In this document: positions 1 through 15,202 of the stretch, piece after piece | Numbering within the stretch: position 1 is the first letter of the stretch | Layout of the letters: each line of letters begins with the position of its first letter | From: Microbacterium sediminis | GTDB lineage: Bacteria > Actinomycetota > Actinomycetes > Actinomycetales > Microbacteriaceae | DNA length: 64,000 nucleotides | Reading direction: 5' to 3' | NCBI RefSeq assembly: GCF_004564075.1 | Contig: NZ_CP038256.1 | Location: 2,356,001 to 2,420,000, forward strand | The notes under the pieces: model-generated | The model's database searches: none | Seen by the model: only the letters and a program-made list of their open reading frames with translations | Told to the model about the DNA's origin: nothing | Position numbers and translations under genes: made by a program

Positions 1-742
1 CGCGCTCGGTGGTGCCCTGCGGGCTCGTCACGCGGCGGCGGAGCTCAGCGGGCTCCTCGCCCTCGGCGTCGAGCAGCGCCGTCGCGCCGGCGAACGTGCC
101 GCGGGCCAGCAGCAGGGCCTCGTCGTCGCCGAAGCCCTGGTGGCGGGCGGCCTCGGCCAGCTTCTCGATGAGCAGGAACACGTACGCCGGCCCGGATCCG
201 GAGATCGTCGAGATCGCGTCGATGCCGTCGTCGCCGCGCACCTCGAGCACCTCGCCGACGGTCTCGAACAGGCGCCGGACGATCGCGAGATCCTCCGGGG
301 TGGCGTGCGTGCCGGCGGCGATGCCGGTGACGCCCTTGCCGACGGTCGACGGGGTGTTCGGCATGGCCCGCACGACGGCCGCCCCCGGGAGCCCGGCCTC
401 GTAGGTGGCCAGCGGCACCCCCGCCGCCAGGGTCACGACGATCGCGTCGTCGCGCACGTGCGGGGCGATGTCGTGGAGCAGCTCCGGCATGCGCTGCGGC
501 TTGACGCCCAGCACCACCACGCGCGAGGCGGCGATGGCCTCGGCGTTGCCCTCGGGCCGCTCCTCGAGCGCGATGCTCTCCACGCCGTCGATCCCCGCGA
601 GGGTCGCGGCGCGGGCGGCCGTCCGGTTGGTCACCCGGATGGGGCCGTCCACGGGCACGCCGCTCGCCGCGAGGCCGCGCACGATCGCGCCTCCCATCGA
701 TCCGGCACCGATGAACGCGATCGCAGGAAGGGTGTCGCTCAT
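1..742 (-). CDS. proC: Pyrroline-5-carboxylate reductase, C-terminus cut by the window edge
   Basis: ProC reduces 1-pyrroline-5-carboxylate to proline with NAD(P)H, the last step of proline synthesis, in the cytoplasm. The reading frame starts at the ATG at 742 and stays open to base 1, so about 247 residues are visible and the C-terminus is missing. The N-terminus has the dinucleotide-binding fold with the motif FIGAGSMGGAI. The family signature around AMPNTP and the SGSGPAYVF stretch that begins the helical dimerisation domain are both present. It is the last visible gene of the minus-strand block, 58 bases after the DUF4190-like gene, so it may be co-transcribed. Confidence 0.95.
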   Translation of the reverse strand, partial: MSDTLPAIAFIGAGSMGGAIVRGLAASGVPVDGPIRVTNRTAARAATLAGIDGVESIALEERPEGNAEAIAASRVVVLGVKPQRMPELLHDIAPHVRDDAIVVTLAAGVPLATYEAGLPGAAVVRAMPNTPSTVGKGVTGIAAGTHATPEDLAIVRRLFETVGEVLEVRGDDGIDAISTISGSGPAYVFLLIEKLAEAARHQGFGDDEALLLARGTFAGATALLDAEGEEPAELRRRVTSPQGTTER

Positions 743-800
743 GACCCCATCGTAGGTCGTCGGCCCCGGCGGCCGAAGGGCATCGCCGGGCCGGATCGGA

Positions 801-1217
801 TCAGCCGGCGGAGACGGCGTTCAGCTGCGTGATGATCCAGCCCACCCAGAACGACGCGCACGCCGCCCCGGCGATCCCCAGGCCCAGGCCCCACCACGCC
901 GGCTCGCGCTGCTCCCACGTGCGGCGAAGGGCGATGATGGCGAGCACGGAGCCCAGGATCGACACCGGCATGGCCAAGGGCATCAGCCACGACAGCGTCA
1001 GGCCGAACACCGACGCGGTCAGCGAGGCCGCGGCCAGCGGGCGGCCGCGGCGACGGGCCGGGGGCGGGGCCGCGGCGGATTCGCGCGCGGGCAGCGGCGG
1101 CGGCGCGTCGTGGACGAGGTTCTCGATGAGCTCCACCGCGTCCGTCGCCACGCGTTCGTACGCCCGGCGGCGGGTCTGCACCGCGGGGTCGTCGGCGTCG
1201 CGGACGGCGTCGCTCAC
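801..1217 (-). CDS. Small membrane protein, DUF4190-like
   Basis: This 138-residue protein of unknown function has a charged N-terminal half of about 65 residues, including a run rich in Pro, Ala and Arg. Two hydrophobic segments follow, separated by a short Arg/Glu/Trp loop with the motif ALRRTWEQ. That layout resembles the DUF4190 family of actinobacterial membrane proteins. I chose the GTG at 1217 because it overlaps the tsaD stop as GTGA, a 4-base coupling used repeatedly in this window. A longer upstream reading is only the shadow of tsaD. The cytoplasmic N-terminus and membrane location are predictions. Confidence 0.75.
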
Positions 1218-2326
1218 GACGAGCCGCTCCCGGCGAGGTGCGGCTGCGCCACGGCGGTCGGGCCGGACTCCGCCACCTGGATCTCGGTCACGGGCAGCGT
1301 CGAGTCGGCACCGAAAGCCAGCGTGGAGGCCGGGCGGCCCGAGGCGATGAGCTCGGCGGCGAGGCCGGCGATCATCGCGCCGTTGTCGGTGCACAGGCTC
1401 AGCGGCGGGATGCGCACGGTCACGCCCTGCGCGGCCGCGCGCTCGAGCGCCACCTCGCGCAGGCGGCGGTTGGCGATCACGCCGCCGCCGAGCAGCAGGC
1501 GCGGAACGCCGTGCGCCGCGCACGCGTCGAGCGCCTTGCTCACGAGCACGTCGACCACGGCCTCGCGGAAGCTCACCGCGACGTCGGCGAGCGGGATCTC
1601 CTCGCCGGCCGCCTCGCGCTGCTCGATCCAGCGCGCCACGGCGGTCTTCAGGCCCGAGAACGAGAAGTCCCAGCGGTGCTTCTCGCGATCGCTCGCCCGC
1701 GACAGCCCGCGCGGGAAGCGGATCGCGGTGGGATCGCCGCCCTGCGCGGCCCGGTCGATCTGCGGACCGCCCGGGTAGGGCAGGCCGAGGATCCGGGCGA
1801 CCTTGTCGAAGGCCTCCCCCGCCGCGTCGTCGACGGTCTCGCCCAGCAGCTCGACGTCGGTGGTGAGATCGCGCACGAGCAGCAGCGACGTGTGTCCGCC
1901 GCTGACGAGCAGCGCGACGGTCGGGTACTCGAGCGGTTCGGAGTCGGCGGTGAGGATGTCGGCGGCGATGTGCCCGACGAGGTGGTTGACCGCGTAGAGC
2001 GGCTTGCCGAGCGAGACGGCGAGCGCTTTGGCGGCCCCGACGCCCACCATGAGCGCGCCGGCGAGGCCGGGGCCGCTCGTGACGGCGACGGCGTCGAGAT
2101 CGGCCAGGCGGATGCCGGCCTCGGCCACGGCGCGCTCGATGGCCGGCTGCAGCGCCTCGAGGTGCGCGCGGGCGGCGACCTCGGGCACGACACCGCCGTA
2201 GCGGGCGTGCTCGTCCATGCTGCTGGCGATCGTGTTGCTCAGCAGCGTGCGACCCCGCACGATCCCGATGCCGGTCTCGTCGCAGCTGGTCTCGATGCCG
2301 AGCACGAGGGGTTCGACGCGGTTCAT
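1214..2326 (-). CDS. tsaD: tRNA N6-threonylcarbamoyladenosine transferase TsaD
   Basis: TsaD transfers the threonylcarbamoyl group from threonylcarbamoyl-AMP to A37 of tRNAs that read ANN codons, working with TsaB and TsaE. The 370-residue product is of normal to slightly long length. It opens with [10 protein letters not shown], has the metal-binding pair in NHLVGH (H-x3-H), the LVSGGHTSL stretch and the later metal ligand in CTDNGA, the expected Kae1/Qri7 ATPase-fold motifs. Its ATG at 2326 overlaps the rimI stop as ATGA. tsaB and rimI lie directly upstream and the DUF4190-like gene overlaps its end. Confidence 0.98.
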
Positions 2327-2829
2327 GTGCAGGCTCCCGCCTCGGCCGGGATGGCGGCGCGGGCCGCGTCCCAGGCGCGCACGTCGAGCTTCATGATGAT
2401 CGCGTCCACGCCGTCGGGCTGGTAGTAGTTCGGGCGCACGCCGATCTCGGCGAACCCCTCGGAGGCGTACAGGCGCTGCGCCACGGGGTTGTCCGCCCGC
2501 ACCTCGAGGAACAGCTCCCGCACGCGGCGCCGGGCGGCCTCGTCGATCACGTGCCGCAGCAGGGTGCGGCCCTGGCCGCGGCCGCGCGCCTCGGCGCTCA
2601 GCGCGATCGTCTGGATGTCGCCGTCGCTCGCGCCCGGGAGCGCGCGCAGGCCCGCGTAGCCGACGATGCGGCCGGCCTGCTCCACGACGACGTAGGCGCC
2701 GTAGGGGCTGCGCAGCTCCTCGGCCATCATCGCCTCGCTCCAGGCGTCGGTGGGAAACGACGCCCGCTCGATCGCCATGATCGCGGCGAGGTCGTCGATC
2801 GTGGCGGGCCGGATCGCGGCGGCGCTCAT
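2323..2829 (-). CDS. rimI: Ribosomal-protein-alanine N-acetyltransferase RimI (GNAT)
   Basis: This 168-residue GNAT enzyme probably N-acetylates ribosomal protein S18 or similar N-termini. In actinobacteria rimI is commonly embedded between tsaB and tsaD, as here. The acetyl-CoA loop appears as ARGRGQG near residues 88-94, preceded by the IQTIAL beta strand. The [13 protein letters not shown] stretch is the usual GNAT C-terminal motif. The ATG at 2829 overlaps the tsaB stop as ATGA; the frame extends further upstream, but that part overlaps tsaB and is not real. Substrate assignment rests on family and context. Confidence 0.93.
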
Positions 2830-3482
2830 GCGCTCACCCGCTTGGGCGTGTGGCCCTCGACCACGTCGGGCGAGCGCAGGTACAGCGGCTCGGCCATCGG
2901 CTCGACGCGACCCGCCGCGATCATGCGCGCGGCGAGGGCGCCGAGCGCCCCGGCGGAGACGGCGGTGGTGAGCACGGGGACGTAGCCCTCGGTCCGGGCC
3001 GGCTCGAGCTCCGGTCCGCGCGTGCGAAGCGGGATGCCGTCGTCGTCGAGGGTGGTGTACGACGACACGGCCCATTCGCGGCGGCGCGCGTCGGTGACGA
3101 TCGAGAACGTGGGGTCGGCGTCGGCGGGCACCATCGCGTGGCCCGCGGCCGCCTCGTCGTCGGCCCGGCGCAGCAGGTGGGCGAACGCGATCGCGTCGTG
3201 GCTGACGACGGGGATCACCGGCAGGCCCCGGCCCTGCGCGAAGGCGCGGGCGGCGGCGATGCCGATGCGCAGGCCGGTGAACGGGCCCGGCCCCATGCCG
3301 GCAGCGACGTGCGTGATGTCGCCGGGGGTCGCGCCCGCCTCGGCGAGCGCGCGCACGAGCAGATCGCCGATCACCTCGGCATGCCCGCGGGGGCTCTCGC
3401 TCGCGGCCGAACCGCGCACGGAGCCGTCGAGCCCGACCACCGCGACGGCCGAGCCCAGCGACGTATCGACGGCCAGGATCAC
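2826..3482 (-). CDS. tsaB: t6A biosynthesis protein TsaB
   Basis: TsaB is the inactive TsaD paralogue that scaffolds the TsaD-TsaB-TsaE complex. The 218-residue product begins ILAVDTSLG and carries the family motif [12 protein letters not shown] near residues 62-73; it lacks the His pair of TsaD. I placed the start at the GTG at 3482. A GGAGG lies very close upstream, closer than usual, so the start is slightly uncertain. In most relatives tsaE lies immediately upstream. Here tsaE is about 4 kb away, separated by the radical SAM/Lgt-like cassette. Confidence 0.95.
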
Positions 3483-3523
3483 CCCTCCAGGGTATCCGCG
3501 CGCGATCCGGGGATCGCTGAGGG

Positions 3524-4048
3524 TCAGCCCAGCAGCAGCAGCAGCGGCGAGATCAGGTCGACGAGACGGCTGAACACCAGCAGGGGCGCGAAGGGCAGGC
3601 TCACGAGGGCGCCGATCCCGAAGCTGCAGGTGCGGCGGATGCACGTCAGCACGAGACCGGCGGCGAGCAGGACGAGGAGCGTGTGCTCGGAGGAGAGGGG
3701 AAACCCCTCCTCGGTCCACAGCGACGCGTACTGGAACACGATCCCGCCCAGCCAGCCGATCGCCACCCCGACCCCGAACCAGATGCCGCCGATCTGCCGG
3801 GGCATCCACCCGCGGGGGACGACCTCGGCGGGAGGGAGCCCCGGCAGCAGGGCGGGCTCCGGCTCTGGCTCGGCTTCGGGCTCAGGCTCGGGCTCGGGCT
3901 CGGGCTCCGGCTCGGGCTCGGGCTCCGGTGGCGCGGGCAGCGGCGGCTCGGGCGGCACGATCAGCTCGTCCGCGTCGGCGCGCGCGCCCGGACCGGCCCC
4001 GGGCGCGCCCGGATCGGGCCAGGTCCCCGAGGTCGCGCTCGCCGTCAT
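3524..4048 (-). CDS. Proline/glutamate-rich membrane protein (paralogue A)
   Basis: I do not recognise a named family for this 174-residue protein. The N-terminal half is acidic and proline-rich and contains about eleven Pro-Glu dipeptides, encoded by a hexanucleotide tandem repeat. The C-terminal half has three to four hydrophobic segments. From residue about 80 the membrane part aligns by eye with the neighbouring 4112-4660 product: IGGIWFGVGVAIGWLGG here against VGGLAFGWGVLIGLLGA there, with CIRRTCSFGIGALVS against CLRATRSLGVGVLIS. The two are therefore probably a tandem duplication. It lies 41 bases upstream of tsaB on the same strand. Function unknown. Confidence 0.75.
   Translation of the reverse strand: MTASATSGTWPDPGAPGAGPGARADADELIVPPEPPLPAPPEPEPEPEPEPEPEPEPEAEPEPEPALLPGLPPAEVVPRGWMPRQIGGIWFGVGVAIGWLGGIVFQYASLWTEEGFPLSSEHTLLVLLAAGLVLTCIRRTCSFGIGALVSLPFAPLLVFSRLVDLISPLLLLLG
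3855..3928. repeat. Hexanucleotide tandem repeat coding for Pro-Glu repeats
   Basis: About twelve imperfect copies of GGCTCG or GGCTCC stand in tandem. Read on the minus strand they encode the alternating Pro-Glu tract of the 3524-4048 protein. The 6-base unit changes length in frame, so slippage would alter the length of the spacer but not break the protein. Confidence 0.85.
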
Positions 4049-4086
4049 GCCGCCACGCTAACGACGCCCGCCCCGCCCGCGCGGGA

Positions 4087-4097
4087 CTTATCCACAG
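4087..4097 (+). other. Consensus DnaA box (copy 1)
   Basis: The sequence CTTATCCACAG contains a perfect TTATCCACA DnaA box. It lies in the 63-base gap between the two paralogous membrane-protein genes. The identical 11-mer recurs at 7440-7450. A single box does not make an origin; it could bind DnaA, be a recombination trace or be chance. Confidence 0.5.
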
Positions 4098-4111
4098 GGC
4101 CGGGCGGGCGG

Positions 4112-4660
4112 TCAGACCCCCGAGAGGACCACGACGCAGGTGCCGAAGATGACGATCGGCATCGCCGCGACGCTGATCAGCACGCCGACGCCGAGGCTCC
4201 GGGTGGCGCGGAGGCAGACGAGGACGATGCCGGCGACGAACAGCAGCGCGATGAGGAGGAGACCGAAGAAGCCCGACGGGGTCATCAGGATCGTGATCGC
4301 GGCCACCTGCACGAGCACCGCGCCGAGGAGGCCGATCAGCACACCCCACCCGAAGGCGAGACCGCCGACCTGACGCGGCGGCGCCGCCGGGGCGGGGTAG
4401 GCGTACGGGTACGGCCCGGCGTACGGCTGCCCCGGCGCCGCGCCCGGGGGCCCGTACGGTGGCATCGCCCCCTGCGGCCCCGGTTGCGCATACGGCTGCG
4501 CGTGCGTCGGCGCGGGCGGGATCGGCGGCGCCTGCGGGGCGTCGCCGCCAGGCGGGGTCCACGCCGGCGGGTCGGCGGCGGGCTCGGGCGGCACGACGCG
4601 CTCGGGCTCCGAGGGCCCCTCGCCGGGCGGCACGGCGGGCTGGTCAGGCGGGTTGCTCAT
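4112..4660 (-). CDS. Proline-rich membrane protein (paralogue B)
   Basis: This 182-residue protein has an N-terminal region of about 95 residues dominated by Pro, Ala, Gly, Gln and Tyr (PYGPPG, PYAYP), of the type seen in actinobacterial proteins with disordered cytoplasmic tails. Three or four membrane segments follow. The membrane half matches that of 3524-4048, while the tails differ (Pro/Tyr/Gly against Pro/Glu). The gene begins inside the last codons of the Lgt-like gene (17-base overlap), so the two are probably translationally coupled. Function unknown; a role with the neighbouring lipid enzymes is only an inference from position. Confidence 0.75.
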   Translation of the reverse strand: MSNPPDQPAVPPGEGPSEPERVVPPEPAADPPAWTPPGGDAPQAPPIPPAPTHAQPYAQPGPQGAMPPYGPPGAAPGQPYAGPYPYAYPAPAAPPRQVGGLAFGWGVLIGLLGAVLVQVAAITILMTPSGFFGLLLIALLFVAGIVLVCLRATRSLGVGVLISVAAMPIVIFGTCVVVLSGV

Positions 4661-5465
4661 CCGGGACGGTCCTCTCTGTCGGGGCGGCGGCCGGGGCGGC
4701 GCGGAAGCGGCCGGTGCGGATCATCCAGGCGATCCGGGCGAACAGGAGCGGCATCGTCACGAGCAGGAACAGCTGCGGCCGGGTCAGCCCGAGCCACGCG
4801 ATCTCGTTGCCGCGGACGAACTCCACGAGGAAGCGGAAGACGCCGTAGGCGGCGACGTAGAGCGTGAGGGTCTCGCCGGCGGCGATGGCGCGATGGCGCA
4901 CCCAGAACCACAGCAGCGCGAAGGCCGCGAGGTGGAAGACGATCTCGTACACGAAGCTCGGGTGCAGCGGCACGCCCGCCACGCTGCCGGTGTACGCGGC
5001 GGCGGCCTCGTCGAGCACGATGCCCCAGGGTGCGTGCGTGGGGGTGCCGGGGTTCTCGGTGAGCAGGCAGCCGAACCGGCCCACGCCCATCGCGAGCGCG
5101 ACGGCGGGCGCGAACAGGTCGCCGGAGCGATCGGGGTAGCGGACGATCCGCTTCGCGACGTGCACGCCGAGCCACGCCCCCACGAGCGCCGAGAGCATCG
5201 ACGCGTTGCCGTACGACAGCTGCTCCACGAGGCTGAGGTTCTTCGAGGGGTCCAGGTGCTGGGCCCACGTGCCCAGCCGGGCCAGGATCGAGGCGCCCAT
5301 CAGCGCACCGAGCAGGAGATACCAGACGCGGTAGTCGGTGATCCCGCGGCGCCGCTTCTCGACGACGAAGACGAGGGCGCCGAGCGTCACACCGAGGGCG
5401 ACGAACGCGGAATGGGTGTCGAGCGGCGGCAGCCAGCCGGCGAGATCCTGCAGCGTGGGGAACAC
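4644..5465 (-). CDS. Lgt-like (prolipoprotein diacylglyceryl transferase family) membrane protein, non-canonical
   Basis: The 273-residue product has about seven hydrophobic segments. It carries clear Lgt-family landmarks: VGRFGCLLTENPG where classical Lgt has GRxGNFxNxE, HPSFVYEIVFHL, and FRFLVEFVRGNE near the end. Canonical Lgt moves diacylglycerol from phosphatidylglycerol to the lipobox cysteine. Here the HGG loop (E. coli His103 region) is not seen, the equivalent stretch reading YGNASMLSALVGAWLG, and the GN of the signature is GC. It may be a divergent paralogue acting on a different acceptor. It is followed by the two paralogous membrane proteins and preceded, 4 bases away, by the small membrane protein and radical SAM gene. 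Confidence 0.8.
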   Translation of the reverse strand: MFPTLQDLAGWLPPLDTHSAFVALGVTLGALVFVVEKRRRGITDYRVWYLLLGALMGASILARLGTWAQHLDPSKNLSLVEQLSYGNASMLSALVGAWLGVHVAKRIVRYPDRSGDLFAPAVALAMGVGRFGCLLTENPGTPTHAPWGIVLDEAAAAYTGSVAGVPLHPSFVYEIVFHLAAFALLWFWVRHRAIAAGETLTLYVAAYGVFRFLVEFVRGNEIAWLGLTRPQLFLLVTMPLLFARIAWMIRTGRFRAAPAAAPTERTVPDEQPA

Positions 5466-5469
5466 GGCC

Positions 5470-5781
5470 TCACCCGACCAGCCGGATCCAGAGCATCACC
5501 CACAGCGGGATCGCCGCCGCGGCGAGCGCCGCGATGACCGCGAGGTAGAGCAGCACGAGGCGAGTGTCGCCCAGCTTGCACCGCGAGCGGAGCAGTCCGG
5601 CGCGGCGCGCGCGGGCGTACCCGGCGATCGCGACGAGGGCGAACGCGAGCACCGCCACCGGTCCGAGCAGGCAGGCGAGCACCGCGACGGTCGTGTAGAC
5701 GCAGAGCCGAAGCGGATCGAAGGCCGGCTTGGGGTCGCCGACCGTGGCGTCGTACTGGTTCAGGCCGTCGTAGGCGCTCAT
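5470..5781 (-). CDS. Small membrane protein of unknown function
   Basis: This 103-residue protein has a short polar N-terminus (MSAYDGLNQYDATVGD), a long hydrophobic stretch at about residues 30-55, an Arg-rich loop with one Cys, and a second hydrophobic stretch at about 75-102. Its ATG at 5781 overlaps the radical SAM stop as ATGA, which ties its translation to that enzyme, and the Lgt-like gene starts 4 bases after its stop. I do not recognise a family. A membrane partner of the radical SAM enzyme is a reasonable but untested guess. Confidence 0.75.
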   Translation of the reverse strand: MSAYDGLNQYDATVGDPKPAFDPLRLCVYTTVAVLACLLGPVAVLAFALVAIAGYARARRAGLLRSRCKLGDTRLVLLYLAVIAALAAAAIPLWVMLWIRLVG

Positions 5782-7403
5782 GTCGCCACCAGCGGCAGGG
5801 TCTTGCGCACCGGGCCGAGGCTCGGCTCGAGCCGCCGCGATCCCGTGGCCGTGGACAGGCGCGTGCGCGAGAGCGGCGCCCACGCCTGCACGGCGCAGAA
5901 CGGGGCGCACTGGTGGGCGTCGGTGGTCTCGTTCACCGTCGCCACGTGCACGCAGCACTGCGTGAGGCGCTCCTCGATCATCGTGTTGATGTCCATGAAG
6001 GGCTTGATCGTGATGCGCTTGACGCGCGCGCCGAGCAGCTTGCGCAGCCGGCCGTGCTGGCCGGGCAGCTTCGAGGCGGCGAGGGTGGCGAGGGTGCCGA
6101 TGCCCAGGTCGCAGGCCTGGCAGATGTCGCGCCAGATGTCGATCATCGACGGGTGCGACAGCGAGGACTGCTCGCTGAGCAGATCGAGCAGGGAGGCCTT
6201 GACGACCTCGCGGATCTTCTTGTTGACGTTCGAGTCGGCGATCCGGTTGGCGATGAGGTCGGGCTCGAGCTCGAGGAACTCCTTGAGCCGGTCGTGCCCG
6301 ATGAGGCCCACGAGCGACTTCCACTCCCCCGCGTCGTCCTGCAGCAGGTAGCCCACCGAGCAGCAGTGCGGGTGGCTGCACGGCAGGGCCGTGAGATCGC
6401 GCCACGTCACGAGGTCGTCGGTCTGCGGGCCCAGGCGCGCCAGCACGCCGCCGTGGGTGAGCCGGTCGTCGGGGTCGATGCCGGCCGAGCGACCGGAGCC
6501 GAACACGGGCTGGATCGTGACGCCGCCGACGAACGGCGTCTCGAGCGCGCGCCGGATGACCGCGCCGATCTCGCCGTCGTTGACGCCGAGGGCCGCCGTC
6601 ATCGTGAGGGTTGTGAACACCCCGGCGGCCGAGAGCCGCTCGAGCGCGCGCTCCTTGAACCGGCGGATGTCGGCGCCGCGGTGATAGGCCGACGCCTCCT
6701 TCGACTCGCCGTCGTACTGGAGGTAGATCTCCACGCGCTCGCGGTGGCGCTTGAGCACCTCGACGAACGCGTCGTCGTTGGCGATCCGCAGCCCGTTCGA
6801 GTTGATCAGGATGCGCACGATCGGGCGGGTCACGAGGTGCTCGAGCAGCTGCTCGAGCCACGGGTACAGCGTCGGCTCGCCGCCCGAGAGCATGAGCACG
6901 TCGATCCGGCCGTTCTCGCGTGCGAGCCGGGCATCGACCGAGGCGAGCACCTCGGCCAGCGGCGCGACGGCCGCCTGGGCCGGGCTGGACTCGGCGAAGC
7001 AGGTGGGGCAGCGCAGGTTGCAGTGATCGGTGATGTCCTCGAGCAGGATGCACGTGTGCTGCGTCTGCATCTGCGGCAGCCCATCCTCGTACGCCGACGG
7101 CACCGGTTTGAAGTTGCCGATCATGTCGGGCTCGTGCACCTTCGTCGGCGCCGTCCACTGCTCGAGGTACGTCAGGATCTCGGCCGACTCGTCGTACAGG
7201 GTGCGGATGAGGCCGTGATCGGGGCAGCCGCGCTCGAGCCAGATCCGCCCGTCGCGGTTGGCGAGCCAGCCCGACAGCCGCCGCACCTCGGCGAGCGGCC
7301 GATCGGGGTCCTCCTCGTGGCAGCGGGGACAGAACGCGTTGACGTAGCGATGGATGCGGTAGTCCCGCAGCGGCATTCCCGGTCCTGCCTGGCTCCCCGT
7401 CAT
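5778..7403 (-). CDS. Multi-cluster radical SAM protein, COG1964 / Tes (MJ0619)-like
   Basis: The 541-residue protein has a radical SAM core with CNLRCPTC at residues 128-135 and GGEPT near 174. It also has an N-terminal rubredoxin-like site (CPRC at 25-28 plus CPDHG at 60-64) and further cysteine groups: PCSHPHCC (342-348), CQAC (428-431), QCC (482-484) and CAPFC (499-503). This layout matches COG1964, which includes archaeal tetraether lipid synthase Tes and the pterin-annotated MJ0619; Tes joins lipid tails and uses several Fe-S clusters plus a mononuclear iron. It starts at the ATG at 7403 and leads the cassette inserted between tsaE and tsaB. Acting on membrane lipid, alongside the Lgt-like gene, is an inference. 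Confidence 0.85.
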   Translation of the reverse strand: MTGSQAGPGMPLRDYRIHRYVNAFCPRCHEEDPDRPLAEVRRLSGWLANRDGRIWLERGCPDHGLIRTLYDESAEILTYLEQWTAPTKVHEPDMIGNFKPVPSAYEDGLPQMQTQHTCILLEDITDHCNLRCPTCFAESSPAQAAVAPLAEVLASVDARLARENGRIDVLMLSGGEPTLYPWLEQLLEHLVTRPIVRILINSNGLRIANDDAFVEVLKRHRERVEIYLQYDGESKEASAYHRGADIRRFKERALERLSAAGVFTTLTMTAALGVNDGEIGAVIRRALETPFVGGVTIQPVFGSGRSAGIDPDDRLTHGGVLARLGPQTDDLVTWRDLTALPCSHPHCCSVGYLLQDDAGEWKSLVGLIGHDRLKEFLELEPDLIANRIADSNVNKKIREVVKASLLDLLSEQSSLSHPSMIDIWRDICQACDLGIGTLATLAASKLPGQHGRLRKLLGARVKRITIKPFMDINTMIEERLTQCCVHVATVNETTDAHQCAPFCAVQAWAPLSRTRLSTATGSRRLEPSLGPVRKTLPLVAT

Positions 7404-7439
7404 GCGGTCAGGCTATCGGCACGCGCCCCGCGCACCGCG

Positions 7440-7450
7440 CTTATCCACAG
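7440..7450 (+). other. Consensus DnaA box (copy 2)
   Basis: CTTATCCACAG, identical to 4087-4097, lies in the 48-base gap between the tsaE stop and the radical SAM start, at the upstream border of the inserted cassette. It could also lie in the promoter region of the radical SAM gene. Function uncertain. Confidence 0.5.
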
Positions 7451-7451
7451 A

Positions 7452-7955
7452 TCAGGGCATGCGGGTGATCGTGACCACGCGGGGCGCGTCGGCGTCGAGC
7501 TCCTCGGCCGACCGCGTGACGTCGCAGCCGTCCATGCCGCGGCCGCCGACGGGGCGCTCGATCTCGATGTCCCACCACGTCTCGCGCAGGCCCTCGACCT
7601 TGCCGCGGCCCCACTCCATCACCACGACGGAGGCGTCGGCGTCGATGTCGAGGTCGTCGAGCTCCATCGCATCTCCCACGCGGTACGCGTCGGCGTGCAC
7701 GAGCGGCGCGCCGCCGACGAGCGACGGGTGGGTGCGGGCGATGACGAACGTCGGGCTCTGGATCGGCCCGCGCACGCCCAGCCCGGCCGCGATCCCGCGC
7801 GTGAGGGTCGTCTTGCCGGCGCCGAGCGGGCCGGTGAGCACGAGGAGGTCGCCGGCGACGAGGCCGCGCCCGATCCGCTCGCCCAGCGCCTCCATGTCGG
7901 CGGCCGAGGCGATGTCGTGCCGCCCCAGCAGCTCATCGGGGATCATCTGTCCCAC
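7452..7955 (-). CDS. tsaE: tRNA t6A biosynthesis ATPase TsaE
   Basis: TsaE is the P-loop ATPase that drives turnover of the TsaD-TsaB complex. The 167-residue product has a Walker A motif GPLGAGKTT at about 42-50, followed by IQSPTFVI and the later MEWGR motif, all typical of the family. I kept the start at 7955; the next Met (MIPDELL) is an alternative only three codons later. alr lies upstream beyond a GC-rich repeat. The usual partner tsaB is displaced about 4 kb downstream. Confidence 0.96.
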   Translation of the reverse strand: MGQMIPDELLGRHDIASAADMEALGERIGRGLVAGDLLVLTGPLGAGKTTLTRGIAAGLGVRGPIQSPTFVIARTHPSLVGGAPLVHADAYRVGDAMELDDLDIDADASVVVMEWGRGKVEGLRETWWDIEIERPVGGRGMDGCDVTRSAEELDADAPRVVTITRMP

Positions 7956-7965
7956 CTCCGACGGA

Positions 7966-8112
7966 CTCGATTGGGTTCGCTTCGCTCACTCCGTTCGACC
8001 CGTCTCCGCTCCGCGGCTTCGCCGCTCCGGTCGACGAGCCCGAGACCCCGCGGCTCGTCGACGGAGCGAAGCGAGCGGAGACGGGTTGAGCGAGCGAAGC
8101 GAGTCGAAACCA
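7966..8112. repeat. Intergenic inverted repeat, copy 1
   Basis: This GC-rich imperfect inverted repeat of about 147 bases lies between tsaE and alr. The left arm runs from GACTCG through CCCGTCTCCGCTCC to GTCGACGAGCC. The right arm runs from GGCTCGTCGAC through GAGCGGAGACGGG to GCGAAGCGAGTC. The single transcript could fold into one long hairpin. The same building blocks recur at 11574-11857 and 26530-26714. No convincing gene overlaps it. Confidence 0.85.
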
Positions 8113-8115
8113 CCC

Positions 8116-9213
8116 CTACACCTCCGTCCGCACGACGCGGTTGCCGATGCGCGTGACGATCTCGTAGTTGATCGTGTCGGCGGCGGCCGCCCACTCCTCC
8201 ACGGCGGGTGCCCCGGTCGCGGGATCGCCGAACAGCACCACCTCGTCGCCCACCGCGACGGGCGCGTCGCCCACGTCGACGACGAACTGGTCCATCGCGA
8301 TCCGTCCGGCCACCGTGAAGCGTCGGCCTCCGATCGTCACCGGCCCGCGCCCCGACGCCTGCCGCGGGATGCCGTCGGCGTAGCCCAGGGGCACGAGCGC
8401 GAACGTGGTCTCGCGCTCCGCGCGGTGCAGGTAGCCGTACGAGGCGCCGTGGCCGGCGGCGACGCGCCGCACGGCGGCGACCCGCGTGCGCAGCGTCATC
8501 GCCGGGGTCAGCCGCAGGCCGGCGGAGGTGAGGTCGTGCAGGGGCGAGAGCCCGTAGAGCCCGATCCCCACGCGGACGGCGTCGAAGCGGGTCTCGGGCA
8601 GCGTGATCGCCGCGGCGGTCGCGGCGAGATGGCGGATCACCGGGCGCACGCCGCGCGCGGCGGCGCGGGCGATGCCGTGCTCGAACACCCGCACCTGCGC
8701 GCGGTCGTCGTCGGGCGAGGTGCCGCTGAGGTGGCTGAACAGGCCCTCCACGCGGATCGCGCCGCGCGCCTGGAGGTCGGCGGCGAGGTCGAACAGCGCC
8801 TCCCACTCGTCCGGCGCGGCGCCGTTGCGCCCCAGCCCGGTCTCGAGCTTGAGGTGCACGCCGACCTCGCGCCCCGCGGCCGCGACCCGCTGCAGCTGCG
8901 CGACGCTCGAGACGCCGAGCTCCACGCCGGCCGCCGCCGCGCGCGCGAAGTCCGCGTCGGGCCCGTGCAGCCAGGCGATGACCGGCGCGTCGATCCCCGC
9001 GCCGCGCAGCTCGTGCGCCTCGGCCAGGTCGGCGACGCCGAGCCGCGTCGCCCCGCCCGCGAGCGCCGCGCGGGCGGCCGTGACCGCCCCGTGCCCGTAG
9101 CCGTCGGCCTTGACCACCGCGATGAACTCGCGCGTGTGCGCCAGCCGCCGCAGCTCGCGGGTGTTGCGCTCGATCGCGCCGGCGTCGATCACCGCCTCGC
9201 GCAGCTCACTCAT
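8116..9213 (-). CDS. alr: Alanine racemase
   Basis: This PLP enzyme interconverts L- and D-alanine for peptidoglycan. The 365-residue product has the PLP lysine in VVKADGYGHG near residue 35 and the C-terminal-domain tyrosine region GASYGYLHRA, giving the two-base racemase mechanism. I chose the ATG at 9213 (MSELREAV); the frame continues upstream into acpS but only as a shadow. The start overlaps the acpS end by 8 bases. Confidence 0.97.
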   Translation of the reverse strand: MSELREAVIDAGAIERNTRELRRLAHTREFIAVVKADGYGHGAVTAARAALAGGATRLGVADLAEAHELRGAGIDAPVIAWLHGPDADFARAAAAGVELGVSSVAQLQRVAAAGREVGVHLKLETGLGRNGAAPDEWEALFDLAADLQARGAIRVEGLFSHLSGTSPDDDRAQVRVFEHGIARAAARGVRPVIRHLAATAAAITLPETRFDAVRVGIGLYGLSPLHDLTSAGLRLTPAMTLRTRVAAVRRVAAGHGASYGYLHRAERETTFALVPLGYADGIPRQASGRGPVTIGGRRFTVAGRIAMDQFVVDVGDAPVAVGDEVVLFGDPATGAPAVEEWAAAADTINYEIVTRIGNRVVRTEV

Positions 9214-9631
9214 CGGCGGACTCCGTCGGTTCCGATGCAGGGAGCCGCTCGCCACCGGCTTCCCGCGTCGATGCGTCGTCGCCCTCGAGCACCGCGTACG
9301 CCACGGCGAGGCCGCCGTCGTGCGACAGCGACAGGTGCGTGCGCGTGATGCCGCGCGCGGCGAGGGTGGCTGCCGTGGCGCCCGTGAGCACGTAGGCGGG
9401 CGCGCGGCGCTCGCCCAGACGCGGCACCTCGATCTCCTGCCAGCTGACGCCGTCGGATCCGCCCAGCGCCTTGATCAGCGCCTCCTTGGCGGCGTAGCGG
9501 GCGGCGAGCGAGCGCAGCGGCAGCTCGCGCTCGTGCGCGCTGAACAGCCGCTCGGCCAGGCGCGGCGACCCCTCGATCTGCTTCTGGAAGCGATCGATGT
9601 CGACCACGTCCACGCCGATCCCGATGATCAC
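9206..9631 (-). CDS. acpS: Holo-[acyl-carrier-protein] synthase
   Basis: AcpS transfers 4'-phosphopantetheine from CoA to the acyl carrier protein of fatty-acid synthesis. The 141-residue product has IGVDVVDIDRF at the N-terminus, holding the Mg-binding Asp, and RYAAKEALIKALG around residues 44-56, holding the catalytic Glu-Ala-Lys region. It starts with GTG at 9631, 13 bases after the glmS stop. The C-terminal 15-20 residues, rich in Glu and Ala, are an extension over the short family form and overlap alr. Confidence 0.96.
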   Translation of the reverse strand: MIIGIGVDVVDIDRFQKQIEGSPRLAERLFSAHERELPLRSLAARYAAKEALIKALGGSDGVSWQEIEVPRLGERRAPAYVLTGATAATLAARGITRTHLSLSHDGGLAVAYAVLEGDDASTREAGGERLPASEPTESADE

Positions 9632-9644
9632 GCGCGGGCCCCGC

Positions 9645-11498
<1,854 letters not shown>

Positions 11499-11573
11499 GC
11501 GAACGATTCTAGGTTCGCGCGCCTGGGAGCCGGCGCGGGGCGCGGTTGCGGCGCGCGGTGGGTTGCGGCTCGC

Positions 11574-11857
11574 GCTCTCGACTCCGCTGCGCTCCGCTCG
11601 AGCCGTCTCCGCTCGCTTCGCTCGGTCGACGAGCCCGCGGGGTCACACTCGCGATGCGCCGCAAGCACCACGGCTCGAGGTCCCGAGCTCTCGACTCGCT
11701 GCGCTCGCTCGAGCCGTCTCCGCTCGCTGCGCTCGGTCGACGAGCCCGCGGGGTCACACTCGTGATGCGCCGCAATCACCACGGCTCGTCGACCGGAGCG
11801 GCGCAGCCGCGGAGCGGAGACGGGTCGAGCGGAGCCGCGAAGCGGCGGAGTCGAGAC
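11574..11857. repeat. Intergenic repeat, copy 2: 113-bp direct repeat plus inverted arm
   Basis: Two direct copies of a 113-base unit start at 11574 and 11687. Each begins GCTCTCGACTC, passes through CTCGAGCCGTCTCCGCTCGC and CGGTCGACGAGCCCGCGGGG, and ends near ATGCGCCGCAA-CACCACGGCTCG. An inverted arm follows from about 11788 to 11857 (GTCGACCGGAGCGGCGCAGC... to GCGGAGTCGAGACC) and can pair with the second copy. The whole 368-base gap between glmS and coaA is essentially this element; I see no gene or clear promoter in it. Confidence 0.85.
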
Positions 11858-11866
11858 CTTGAGGCC

Positions 11867-12811
11867 TTAAACCTTCCGCAGGAGCACCGACTCGACGCCG
11901 TGGTCGGCGCCCTTGCGCAGCACGAGGGTGGCGCGGTGCTTGGTGGGCAACACGTTCTCGATGAGGTTCGGCATGTTGATGTCGTTCCAGTAGCCGAGCG
12001 CGGTCTGCACGGCCTCCTCGTCGCTGAGGTTCGCGAAGACGTTGAAGTACGACGCCGGGTTCGAGAACGCGCCCTCGCGCAGGGCGAGGAAGCGGTTCAC
12101 GTACCAGTTGGTGATGTGCTCGGTCTCGGCATCGACGTAGATGGAGAAGTCGAAGAAGTCGCTCACCGCCACCTCGTTGGGCGACGGCGGCGGCTGCAGC
12201 ACGTTGAGCCCCTCGACGATCACGACATCGGGCCGGCGCACCGTCACCTGCGCGTCGGGAACGATGTCGTAGCGCACGTGCGAGTAGAACGGCGCGTGCA
12301 CGACCTCCTCGCCGCTCTTGACCTTCGTGAGGAACTCCACGAGCGCCCGCCGGTCGTACGACTCGGGGAAGCCCTTGCGCGCCATCAGGCCCCGGCGCTC
12401 GAGCTCGGCGTTGGGATAGAGGAAGCCGTCGGTCGTGATCAGCTCCACGCGCGGCGTGGCCGACCAGCGGCTCATGAGCTCGCGCAGCAGGCGCGCGATC
12501 GTCGACTTGCCCACGGCGACCGATCCGGCCACGCCCACGACGAAGGGCGTGGTGGTGTCGTCCTCGCGGAGGAAGCCGCTCACGTCGCTGCCGATCGCGC
12601 GGTGCGCCTTGGCCCAGATGCTGAGCAGGCGGCTCAGCGGCAGGTACACGTCGCGGACCTCGGTGATGTCGAGGCGGTCGCCGATGCCGCGGATCTGCAC
12701 GATCTCCTGCTCGGTGAGCGGCTGATCCATGCCGGCCGCGAGCCGCGCCCAATCGGCGCGCGCGATCTCCCGGTACCGGGAGTGCGGGAGGGATCCGTCT
12801 GCGGCGCTCAT
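11867..12811 (-). CDS. coaA: Type I pantothenate kinase
   Basis: CoaA phosphorylates pantothenate, the first step of CoA synthesis. The 314-residue product has the P-loop [12 protein letters not shown] near residues 90-101 and the family stretches TTDGFLYPN and IVEGLNVLQ; its length is close to that of E. coli CoaA. I used the ATG at 12811 (MSAADGS); an ATG three codons earlier is possible. It is divergent from ppx over a 76-base gap. CoA made here is the substrate of AcpS two genes away. Confidence 0.96.
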
Positions 12812-12829
12812 CCGCAACATCGTAGCCGC

Positions 12830-12847
12830 GCGGCCGGCGCCGGCCGC
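12830..12847. repeat. Perfect 18-bp GC palindrome between coaA and ppx
   Basis: GCGGCCGGCGCCGGCCGC reads the same on both strands and sits in the divergent coaA-ppx promoter region. It could be an operator or a hairpin in the coaA leader. GC palindromes also arise by chance in such DNA. Confidence 0.5.
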
Positions 12848-12887
12848 ACGGGCGGTGCACCCCGGTCTCTGCGGATACCGTTGCCGT

Positions 12888-13823
12888 ATGCGTCTGGGCG
12901 TCCTCGACATCGGATCGAACACCGTGCATCTGCTCGTGGCCGACGCCCGTCCCGGCGGGCGCCCCCTCGCCACCACGAGCGAGAAGAGCGTGCTGCGCCT
13001 CATGCGCTACCTCGACGACCGCGGCGCGATCACCGACGCCGGCGTGACGGCGATCCTGCGGGCCGTGCGCAAGGCCAAGCGCGTCGCGGCGCAGGAGGGT
13101 GTGGCCGAGCTCGTCGCCACGGCCACCTCCGCGGTGCGGGAGGCCCGCAACGGCCCCGAGGTGATCGCCCGCATCGAGGATGTGATCGGTCAGCCCCTGC
13201 AGGTGCTCGGCGGCGCGGACGAGGCGCGGCTGACGTTCCTGGCCGTGCGCCGCTGGTTCGGGTGGTCGGCCGGGCGGATCCTGCTGTTCGACATCGGTGG
13301 CGGCTCGCTCGAGATCGCCGGCGGCAGCGAGGAGCTGCCGCAGGCCGCGGAGTCGGTGCCGTTGGGCGCCGGACGGATGACGATCGGCTTCCTGCCGAAG
13401 GATCCGCCGGGAGAACGGGCGCTCGAGCGCCTGCGCGAGCACGCCGCCGAGGTGCTGCGGCCCGTGGCGAAGCGGTTCGCGAAGCTGCCGCGTCCGGATC
13501 ACGTGGTCGGCTCGTCGAAGACGATCCGTTCGCTCGCCCGGCTGGCGGGGCACCGCCGCCCGGGCTGGTCGGAGATGGAGCGGTGGATGCTGCCGCGCGA
13601 GTCGTTGGCGTCGTGGATCCCGGTGCTCGCCCGCATCCCGGCGACCGCGCGTCAGGAGCTGCCGGGCATCACGGCCGACCGCACGTTCCAGATCACGGCC
13701 GGGGCCGTGGTGCTGCACGAGGCGATGGCCTCACTCGGCGTCGAGGAACTCGAGGTCAGCCCGTGGGCGCTGCGCGAGGGCGTCATGCTGCGGCGCATCG
13801 AGGAGCTCGAGATCCGCGGCTGA
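12888..13823 (+). CDS. Ppx/GppA-family phosphatase
   Basis: This 311-residue protein has the actin-like ATPase fold of exopolyphosphatase / pppGpp phosphohydrolase: [13 protein letters not shown] at the N-terminus, a central [13 protein letters not shown] and the [10 protein letters not shown] turn. It is the short Ppx1-like form without the C-terminal HD domain. It would hydrolyse polyphosphate or pppGpp; which one cannot be told from sequence. The start is the ATG at 12888. It is the only plus-strand gene inside the minus-strand housekeeping block, divergent from coaA and convergent with glmM. Confidence 0.88.
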
Positions 13824-13846
13824 CGCGTCGACCGATCGGGTTGCCC

Positions 13847-15202
13847 TTACAGCGCGAGACGCTCCCGGACGACCTCGGCGAGGGCGTCGGCGTGGCGGTG
13901 CGCGGTCGCCTCGTCGGCGGCCTCCACCATCACGCGGACGAGCTGCTCCGTGCCCGACGCGCGCAGCAGCACGCGCCCGGTCTCGCCGAGCTCCGCCGTG
14001 ACGGCCGCCACGGCGTCCTGCACGACGGGGTCGGAGACGCGCTCGCGATCGACGTCCTTCACGTTCACGAGCACCTGCGGGTAGACCGTCATGATCGAGG
14101 CGAGCTCGGCCAGCGACTTGCCGGTGCGCGCCATCTCGGCCACGAGGTGCAGGCCTGTCAGCACGCCGTCGCCGGTCGTGGCGAACTCGCTCATGATGAC
14201 GTGCCCGGACTGCTCGCCGCCGAGGGAATGGCCGCCCTCGGTCATCGCCTCGAGCACGTAGCGGTCGCCGACCGCGGTCTGCACCACGTCGATGCCGCGC
14301 TCGCGCATGGCCCGGTGCAGGCCGAGGTTGCTCATCACGGTGGCGACGAGGGTGTCGTTCGCGAGGTGGCCGCGCTCGTGCATCGAGGCGGCGAGGATCG
14401 CCATGATCTGGTCGCCGTCGACGACGCGTCCGTTCGCGTCCACGGCGAGGCAGCGATCGGCGTCGCCGTCGTGCGCGATGCCCACGTCGGCGCCCAGCCG
14501 CACGACCGCCTCGGCGAGGTGGTCGAGGTGCGTGGATCCGACGCCGTCGTTGATGTTGATGCCGTCGGGATCGGCGCCGATCACCGTCACGCGCGCGCCG
14601 GCGTCGCGGAACGCGTCGGGCGAGACGCCGGACGCCGCGCCGTGGGCGCAGTCGAGCACCACGTGGATGCCGTCGAGGCGGTTGGGCAGCGACGCGAGCA
14701 GGTGGATCAGGTAGCGGTCCTCGGCGTCGCTGAAGCGGCGGATGCGGCCGACGTCGGCGCCGGTGGGCAGCAGGTCGGGGCCGCCGAGGTTGGCCTCGAT
14801 GCGGCGCTCGACCACGTCGGGCAGCTTGACCCCGCCGCGCGCGAACACCTTGATCCCGTTGTCGGGAGCCGGGTTGTGCGAGGCCGAGATCATGATCCCG
14901 AAGTCGGCCTCGAAGTCGCCGATGAGGAACGCCAGGGCCGGCGTGGGGATGACGCCGGCGTCGTAGACGTCGACGCCCGACGAGGCCAGGCCGGCCGAGA
15001 CGGCGGCGGCGAGGAACTCACCCGAGATGCGGGGATCCCGGGCGATGACGGCGCGAGCGCGACGGCCCTGGGCGCGTCGCTGCTCGGCGGAACGGCCCTG
15101 GCCCAGGACGACGGCGGTCGCCTGGGCCAGGGACAGAGCAAGGTCGGCGGTGAGGGTGCCGTTGGCAAGCCCTCGCACGCCGTCCGTGCCGAAAAGCGGC
15201 AT
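13847..15202 (-). CDS. glmM: Phosphoglucosamine mutase
   Basis: GlmM converts glucosamine-6-phosphate to glucosamine-1-phosphate for UDP-GlcNAc. The 451-residue product has the phosphoserine loop ISASHNP near residue 105, the metal loop DGDADR and a C-terminal phosphate-binding RASGTE. It starts 15 bases after the rpsI stop, the usual actinobacterial order rplM-rpsI-glmM. In a GDP-type legionaminate route a phosphoglucosamine mutase is also needed, so GlmM could serve the cluster at 50-58 kb. Confidence 0.98.

Follow-up and report, generated by a model that had tools for sequence, protein, structure and literature searches.

Introduction

Canonical bacterial lipoproteins are marked by a lipobox, an N-terminal signal peptide ending in [LVI][ASTVI][GAS]C, and MYXO-CTERM signals carry an Arg cluster after their hydrophobic part. 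The joining of lipid tail ends is the activity of the radical S-adenosylmethionine (SAM) enzyme Tes (GDGT-MAS; MJ0619, PDB 7tol/7tom). To our knowledge, no pathway combines tail-end joining with protein lipidation, and no described lipoprotein pathway covers lipid attachment or tailoring of the kind considered here. Our subject is a gene cassette in a 64,000-nucleotide stretch of the Microbacterium sediminis genome (GCF_004564075.1, contig NZ_CP038256.1, positions 2,356,001 to 2,420,000 of the forward strand; hereafter the window), which encodes a divergent radical SAM protein (rSAM), an Lgt paralogue (LgtL), a membrane protein (smp) and the membrane proteins mem1 and mem2. The probable role of the cassette is to lipidate a membrane protein dedicated to it, or to tailor the lipid that this protein carries. 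We propose that it is a self-contained membrane-protein lipidation system with mem1 as substrate, a reading to which, as a whole, we assign a probability of roughly 0.45.

Tes is reported to hold lipid tails in hydrophobic pockets and to store the radical of the tail in the form of a carbon-sulfur bond to the C-terminal cluster (PMC9433317), and Tes homologues are reported from bacterial genomes, with function unproven (PMC11868695). MYXO-CTERM and related signals, as described (PMC11980579), have a C-terminal helix and an invariant cysteine in common with mem1; there the Cys motif precedes the hydrophobic part, whereas mem1 has the reverse order of positive residues, helix, then G-x-C. Unlike canonical lipoproteins, mem1 bears its cysteine C-terminally and does not fit the lipobox. 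We noticed no intramembrane protease among the cassette genes. Among the open-licence literature matches listed, judged by title and the start of the abstract, none describes such a cassette. The component superfamilies are known; an assembly of them that includes a radical enzyme and an uncleaved signal at the C-terminus was mentioned in none of these titles and abstract starts.

The cassette genes travel together

We compared 108 cassette loci, 28 to which 80 from GTDB genomes were added (the best 80 of 97 relative-encoding stretches, from 111 stretches); with three repeats among them, distinct rSAM proteins number 105. lgtL adjoins rSAM in 105 of the 108 loci, at different genomic places, and the three without lgtL beside rSAM (L019, L118 and L131) stop at a contig edge. 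The order is rSAM-smp-lgtL-mem1 in Microbacterium, Agromyces and Leucobacter, lgtL-mem1-rSAM-(smp) in Mycobacterium, Nocardia and Microbispora, and lgtL-rSAM-smp-mem1 in Knoellia. When 394 genomes were searched under identical settings with LgtL and with rSAM, the strong matches of LgtL (E ≤ 4.8e-36, followed at 3e-17 by what is, by score, an ordinary Lgt) and those of rSAM fell in one and the same set of 24 genomes. The cassette is almost certainly a functional unit, made of rSAM, lgtL and mem1, plus smp in most loci. An earlier note on this DNA, made from the window's letters, had described a five-gene cassette and proposed a check of co-occurrence; the genes do travel as a unit across actinobacteria, with the exception of mem2, a local copy that lacks the cysteine. 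That unrelated genes gathered by chance and were inserted in the tsa operon fits the adjacency of mem2 to tsaB, at a site that is not conserved; the recurrence of the same genes side by side at different genomic places refutes it.

Generic transporter-type families aside, the other large groups of neighbouring genes reflect synteny within a lineage, as in Streptosporangiales and Mycobacterium, or are antisense artefacts. One group recurring in 22 loci was discarded as a Streptosporangiales syntenic gene merged with antisense artefacts. This neighbour-family survey, whose picking of open reading frames (ORFs) misses short genes, recognised no lipid-biosynthesis gene among families recurring beside the cassette, and a DVU_1556-like methyltransferase (see below) was not seen recurring there either. 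A phage link, suggested by a weak match of one mycobacterial mem1 to PF24191 (mycobacteriophage helix protein; E 0.00054, 20.9 bits, cut-off 31), found no support; 50,697 phage records gave no match to rSAM or the mem1 tail with BLAST, which masks low complexity, and 0 of 37 pattern stretches in viral contigs were confirmed. A defence system was rejected as well: PADLOC matches at E ≤ 0.01 were viperins only, through the common radical SAM core.

An Lgt paralogue with the tested phospholipid-site residues retained

lgtL (4644..5465, minus strand) starts with GTG and encodes 273 amino acids. The protein matches PF01790 at 1e-27 in the Pfam scan, with 97.4 bits against a gathering score of 24.9, has the Lgt fold, and scores 61.5 bits against the equivalog TIGR00544, below its cut-off of 118.9. 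Mapped solely on E. coli Lgt 103-282, LgtL keeps the essential Arg143 and Arg239 (104/104 each) and the phosphatidylglycerol (phospholipid)-site residues tested. The Lgt-like protein recognised earlier is an Lgt paralogue that keeps the tested phospholipid-site residues, and, unlike Lgt, it is paired with rSAM. The M. sediminis genome has a separate Lgt elsewhere.

A C-terminal cysteine conserved with the cassette

mem1 (4112..4660, minus strand) has a Pro-rich N-terminus, transmembrane helices and a C-terminal G-x-C, the proposed modification site being Cys175 (codon 4136..4138, minus strand; context IVIFGTC175VVVLSGV). Across loci, the N-terminal portion is rich in proline (28% Pro in the median); in most cases two or three helices follow, and the protein ends in a short tail. 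A G-x-C pattern search recovered mem1 in 97 of the 108 loci, eight of them with two or three copies. Among the 11 missed, four have mem1 at another position (L067, L125, L126 and L131), L150 has a one-helix G-x-C frame directly before lgtL (pattern-guided), L019 has only a weak profile match on the same contig (G046, E 0.033), four run out at a contig end (L085, L089, L113 and L118), and L087 is without mem1.

Conservation of the cysteine was read from BLASTP clusters that did not require it, in which G-x-C is present in 44/44 (42 distinct tails) and 9/9 members; it occurs in 9/68 other ORFs with a C-terminal helix, and seven of these nine are cassette proteins by inspection. A profile of the mem1 C-terminus matched, at E ≤ 1e-3, in 29 of 30 cassette genomes and in 2 of 28 cassette-free genomes. 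Both cassette-free matches (G595 and G443) and two weaker relatives (G511 and G529; E 0.002-0.003) are without the cysteine; G595, whose genus includes two carriers, has VLSYGVGTG in place of the SAGFCTG or TAGFCTG present in carriers, for example in the Microbispora proteins. Other weak matches inspected (L199-L206) are seemingly chance hits to unrelated membrane proteins, two of which (L200 and L201, E 0.002-0.003) contain Cys as DPC, not G-x-C. Among 5.8 billion proteins the profile, which favours Cys, found 192, and all of the 120 listed have G-x-C. In 30 cassette-bearing genomes, no mem1-profile match at E ≤ 1e-3 lay outside the cassette stretch that could point to further substrates.

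The last Lys or Arg precedes the cysteine by 20 to 21 residues (5th to 75th percentile), the sequence preceding this interval carries a charge of +1 to +4 in 108/108 entries, which represent 106 distinct genes, and the tail has almost no net charge. Because positive residues precede the last helix, the positive-inside rule predicts that the cysteine lies at the outer membrane face. The residue at -1 is Pro in 49/108, Phe in 17/108 and Val in 14/108, with others in the remainder.

mem2 (3524..4048, minus strand) is about 40% identical to mem1 over 87-88 aligned residues, in agreement with the earlier view of two paralogous membrane proteins. It has FSRL in place of FGTC and, being Cys-less there, is probably not a substrate.

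A radical SAM enzyme related to, and distinct from, Tes

rSAM (5778..7403, minus strand; 541 amino acids) comprises a rubredoxin-like N-terminal domain, a radical SAM core and a Cys-rich C-terminal domain, with Pfam matches to PF04055 (9.5e-18) and to PF23545, a zinc-ribbon/rubredoxin-type N-terminal domain (1e-11). Against the Protein Data Bank (PDB), Tes is the sole match by sequence (3e-36) and the first by profile (5.8e-41, then SkfB at 2.4e-8); Foldseek with a structure model of moderate quality (pLDDT 70.9) gives Tes 7tom at 6e-26, then SkfB at 2.6e-6. The domain order is also that of Tes, and C347, C483, C484 and C503 are common to both. The rubredoxin cysteines C25, C28 and C60 and the radical SAM cysteines C128, C132 and C135 (CX3CX2C) are kept in 108/108, and H63 of the rubredoxin motif (CX2C...CX2H) is invariant in 43 rows. 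Cysteines 118, 342, 347, 431, 483, 484, 499 and 503 are kept in 99-100% of the 108 sequences and Cys 428 in 96%; of these, 118, 342, 428, 431 and 499 are extra relative to Tes.

The Tes-like assignment made earlier stands for nearest relative and not for orthology, which we rejected on a missed cut-off and absent Tes residues. rSAM scores 149.5 bits against the Tes NCBIfam equivalog NF045702 (cut-off 450); its best NCBIfam match is TrsS, a radical SAM (seleno)protein (NF045646; 190.5 bits, 3.8e-56), yet this also falls below the cut-off of 490. The ligands C73, C77 and C80 of the N-terminal auxiliary [4Fe-4S] cluster of Tes correspond to K99, D107 and P110, and in the cassette alignment Met439 and Tyr459 are replaced by Lys467 and Val487. 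Both residues are reported as fully conserved across 1000 archaeal homologues, and the M439A, Y459F and Y459L variants as still active (PMC9433317), so their absence from rSAM is compatible with activity.

Thirteen weaker relatives in the class sample form a separate Streptomyces-type branch, from which six loci were fetched (L157, L158, L159, L160, L161 and L162). Two such proteins score 335-337 bits against TrsS and 319-331 bits against Tes, and in four aligned rows the cysteines of the N-terminal auxiliary cluster are retained. Where the neighbour was scored, at three loci, it is arsenite-methyltransferase-like (140-143 bits versus DVU_1556, cut-off 155). A phylogeny of rSAM had been proposed earlier as a check on a lipid-related role: the tree splits the cassette family from Tes plus this methyltransferase-adjacent group (100/100). 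With 20 rows, and Tes and cassette branches of about 8 changes per column, it shows that the families are separate, not their order of kinship.

What might this enzyme act on? The earlier proposal of a lipid-modifying system agrees with the gene unit, the Tes-like rSAM and the Lgt paralogue; bulk membrane lipid as the target fares less well. If bulk lipid were the target, rSAM would join or alter phospholipid acyl tails, LgtL would move a head group or glyceryl unit, and mem1 and smp would be scaffolds. The nearest solved relative by sequence and fold and the phosphatidylglycerol-site residues kept in LgtL are in line with this, as is a report that Tes produced in E. coli contains bacterial phospholipids (PMC9433317). 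The survey of recurring neighbours, which misses short genes, recognised no lipid-biosynthesis gene, however, rSAM lacks Met439, Tyr459 and the N-terminal cluster ligands of Tes (M439A and Tyr459 variants being active all the same), and the mem1 cysteine that is kept only where the cassette is present would be left unexplained. We regard a bulk-lipid role as unlikely; a dedicated Cys-bearing membrane protein is the likelier target.

The second PDB relative, SkfB, is the maturase of the sporulation killing factor, a ribosomally synthesised and post-translationally modified peptide (RiPP). By analogy, rSAM could form a thioether or other cross-link at cysteines of mem1, smp or both, with LgtL merely binding or presenting the product. 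mem1 does resemble a variable substrate with a fixed signal, and cysteines are invariant in smp and LgtL and conserved in mem1. Yet the likeness to SkfB extends over profile positions 122-287 only, in the radical SAM core, as would be expected for many radical SAM enzymes, and the mem1 cysteine is predicted outside, away from a cytoplasmic enzyme. A RiPP-like maturase thus seems doubtful, somewhat more so than the bulk-lipid scheme.

smp and a possible redox complex

smp (5470..5781, minus strand) encodes a membrane protein of 103 amino acids; neither it nor mem1 or mem2 matched a Pfam family above cut-off. It was found by tblastn in 86 of the 108 loci, and its two cysteines (in DPLRLC and S.C.LgDTRLV) are invariant in 86/86 aligned sequences. 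The misses include one contig end, L150 with a diverged relative, and all Mycobacterium loci of the GTDB set. Each membrane component has conserved cysteines beside helices, and rSAM, which needs electrons, retains its rubredoxin-type cysteines throughout; one could picture a redox or metal complex in which cysteines of mem1, smp and LgtL are ligands carrying electrons to or from the Cys-rich rSAM, with no lipid transfer. Against such a complex, smp is undetected in 22 of the 108 loci, so two of the ligands would be dispensable, a single cysteine per mem1 makes a poor metal site, and the Lgt residues that LgtL retains are the phospholipid-binding ones. We consider it improbable.

Proposed mechanism

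The lipidation of mem1 that we propose would run as follows. The last helix of mem1 would start after cytoplasmic Lys/Arg residues and carry the conserved G-x-C cysteine to the outer membrane face, the tail thus resembling a lipoprotein signal peptide that is C-terminal and uncleaved. The LgtL catalytic pocket should face the outer side and bind phosphatidylglycerol, transferring its diacylglyceryl part to the mem1 cysteine. rSAM, with its Tes-like fold and on the cytoplasmic side, would then modify a saturated carbon, either in the lipid or in the cysteine region that bears it; the reaction and the carbon attacked are guesswork, as is the role of smp, perhaps a membrane dock or redox partner of rSAM in lineages that have it.

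A modifying system with its substrate is suggested because the enzymes are conserved and mem1 is variable except for a cysteine whose distance from the inner face was measured, and because mem1 occurs in several copies at some loci and has lost the cysteine in a few homologues without the enzymes. LgtL is cast as the transferase because its pocket would face the appropriate side and its known relatives lipidate cysteine. The transfer and the order of the steps are what we infer from these features; judged from sequence, the chance that the mem1 cysteine is the acceptor of LgtL is about even, and that rSAM acts on the lipid part is a more tentative suggestion.

Several observations weigh against the scheme. 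Asn146 of E. coli Lgt, reported as essential (PMC13251419), is Cys in 104/104 LgtL proteins (Cys133 in M. sediminis; codon 5067..5069, minus strand), and His103 is Leu in 103/104. The second Lgt homologue of M. smegmatis, MSMEG_5408, carries Y26H and N146C, which is the LgtL signature (Y26 falls on His18 of LgtL when the two are aligned without gaps under E. coli numbering), and its Lgt activity is presumed low (PMC13251419); the description makes no connection to a radical SAM gene. M. smegmatis encodes a mem1 relative (P0176), and by this likeness MSMEG_5408 may itself be an LgtL. The Tes marks missing from rSAM do not suit a simple Lgt-plus-Tes scheme, and smp goes undetected in a fifth of loci (22/108). 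The mem1 search pattern required Gly at -2 and Cys, so that Cys conservation is not read from those rows, and the C-terminal profile was built from Cys-bearing rows and favours Cys. Cys-less homologues number only four, of which G443, G511 and G529 resemble one family in one genus. L087 (Microbacterium sp. 8M) has no G-x-C protein after lgtL; at 12912-14891 of that locus, the place of mem1 is taken by an open frame of 660 residues that begins Pro-rich, contains many helices and ends like a histidine kinase. The G-x-C motif lacks the small -1 residue of the classical lipobox, and the helix runs a few residues past the cysteine, which may therefore sit inside the membrane.

A bolder variant of mem1 lipidation would yield a membrane-spanning anchor: LgtL would add diacylglyceryl to the outer-face cysteine and rSAM would join the acyl tail ends, mid-membrane, to tails of inner-leaflet phospholipids, stapling the protein across the bilayer. 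This is a long shot; acyl tails coupled on a protein would, if true, be categorically new.

Genomic setting and distribution

In the window all five ORFs between tsaE (7452..7955, minus strand) and tsaB (2826..3482, minus strand; start near 3482 inferred from VILAVDTS), both flanking the cassette, lie on the minus strand. rSAM and smp overlap by 4 nt, smp and lgtL are 4 nt apart, lgtL and mem1 overlap by 17 nt, and mem1 and mem2 are separated by 63 nt. These coordinates bear out the co-directional set with overlaps or short gaps reported earlier. So does a survey of 30 loci, own genome included, for the statement that tsaE and tsaB are usually consecutive: in the 22 where both genes were visible (in 8 they were not), the spacing is 7-156 nt in 15 and about 1 kb in the other seven. 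The latter are same-genus relatives (L169, L171, L172, L178, L179, L184 and L188), and the L169 gap holds, by inspection, an alpha/beta-hydrolase-like frame on the opposite strand. The significance attached to insertion at this site has to be dropped: within the stretches fetched for the 108 loci, tsaE is near the cassette in the M. sediminis genome only. The placement is accidental and has no bearing on function.

Recent foreign DNA was rejected as an origin, since cassette G+C (0.70-0.755) is within the range of window positions 1-14000 (0.693-0.773), and an insertion signature was rejected, no exact flanking repeat being among the 20 of 29 repeat families displayed at the locus. Imperfect direct repeats, about 70-80% alike, at 4037-4111 and 7392-7464 flank the rSAM-to-mem1 segment; we read them as related sequences upstream of mem2 and rSAM and not as a duplicated target site. 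Inside these two similar stretches, 38-40 nt upstream of the rSAM and mem2 start codons, lie the window's only two sites of the DnaA-box-like TTATCCACAG, at 4088-4097 and 7441-7450 (expected 0.00); the genome has 12 in total. A conserved promoter motif was rejected, as the DnaA-box-like sites recur near the cassette in only three of the 108 loci: a shorter DnaA-box-like word has two sites within 100 nt of rSAM in L120, and in L053 and L057 it lies about 1.5 kb upstream. Elsewhere in the window, the alr-tsaE intergenic region (7980-8110) has repeats rich in GAGCGAAGCGAGCGGAGACGGG-like words, and similar repeated words occur in translations near glmS, perhaps at 11500-11780.

The distribution of this compact system is patchy and takes in harmless genera, with Microbacterium lacticum DSM 20427 (L077) among the carriers. 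Counting the M. sediminis genome, strong rSAM matches occur in 4/35 same-genus genomes in the first sample, 4/299 in the family sample and 24/394 in the class sample; another 13 genomes of that last sample have no closer protein than a relative of 30-33% identity. LgtL is found in 41/148 Mycobacterium genomes, one of them (G804) with a partial match with an internal stop. Three of 72,556 plasmid records match at E ≤ 1e-60: the large plasmids pS2b (Mycobacterium avium, L165) and pJCM12687 (M. branderi, L166), both with an uninterrupted series of lgtL, a pair of G-x-C proteins and rSAM, and an 11.85-Mb Nonomuraea record. The sole locus labelled outside Actinomycetota in the GTDB-genome set of stretches is L144, on a metagenome-assembled genome contig labelled Oscillochloris (Chloroflexota), with the cassette at 2655-5757 and an rSAM 64% identical; this is possibly a binning error.

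Implications

If true, the proposed scheme would represent a second kind of bacterial protein lipidation, C-terminal and uncleaved, served by an Lgt paralogue of its own and by a radical enzyme capable of attacking unactivated carbons. Lgt paralogues now taken as weak spare copies would gain a function, and an orphan actinobacterial relative of the tetraether-synthase family would gain a substrate.

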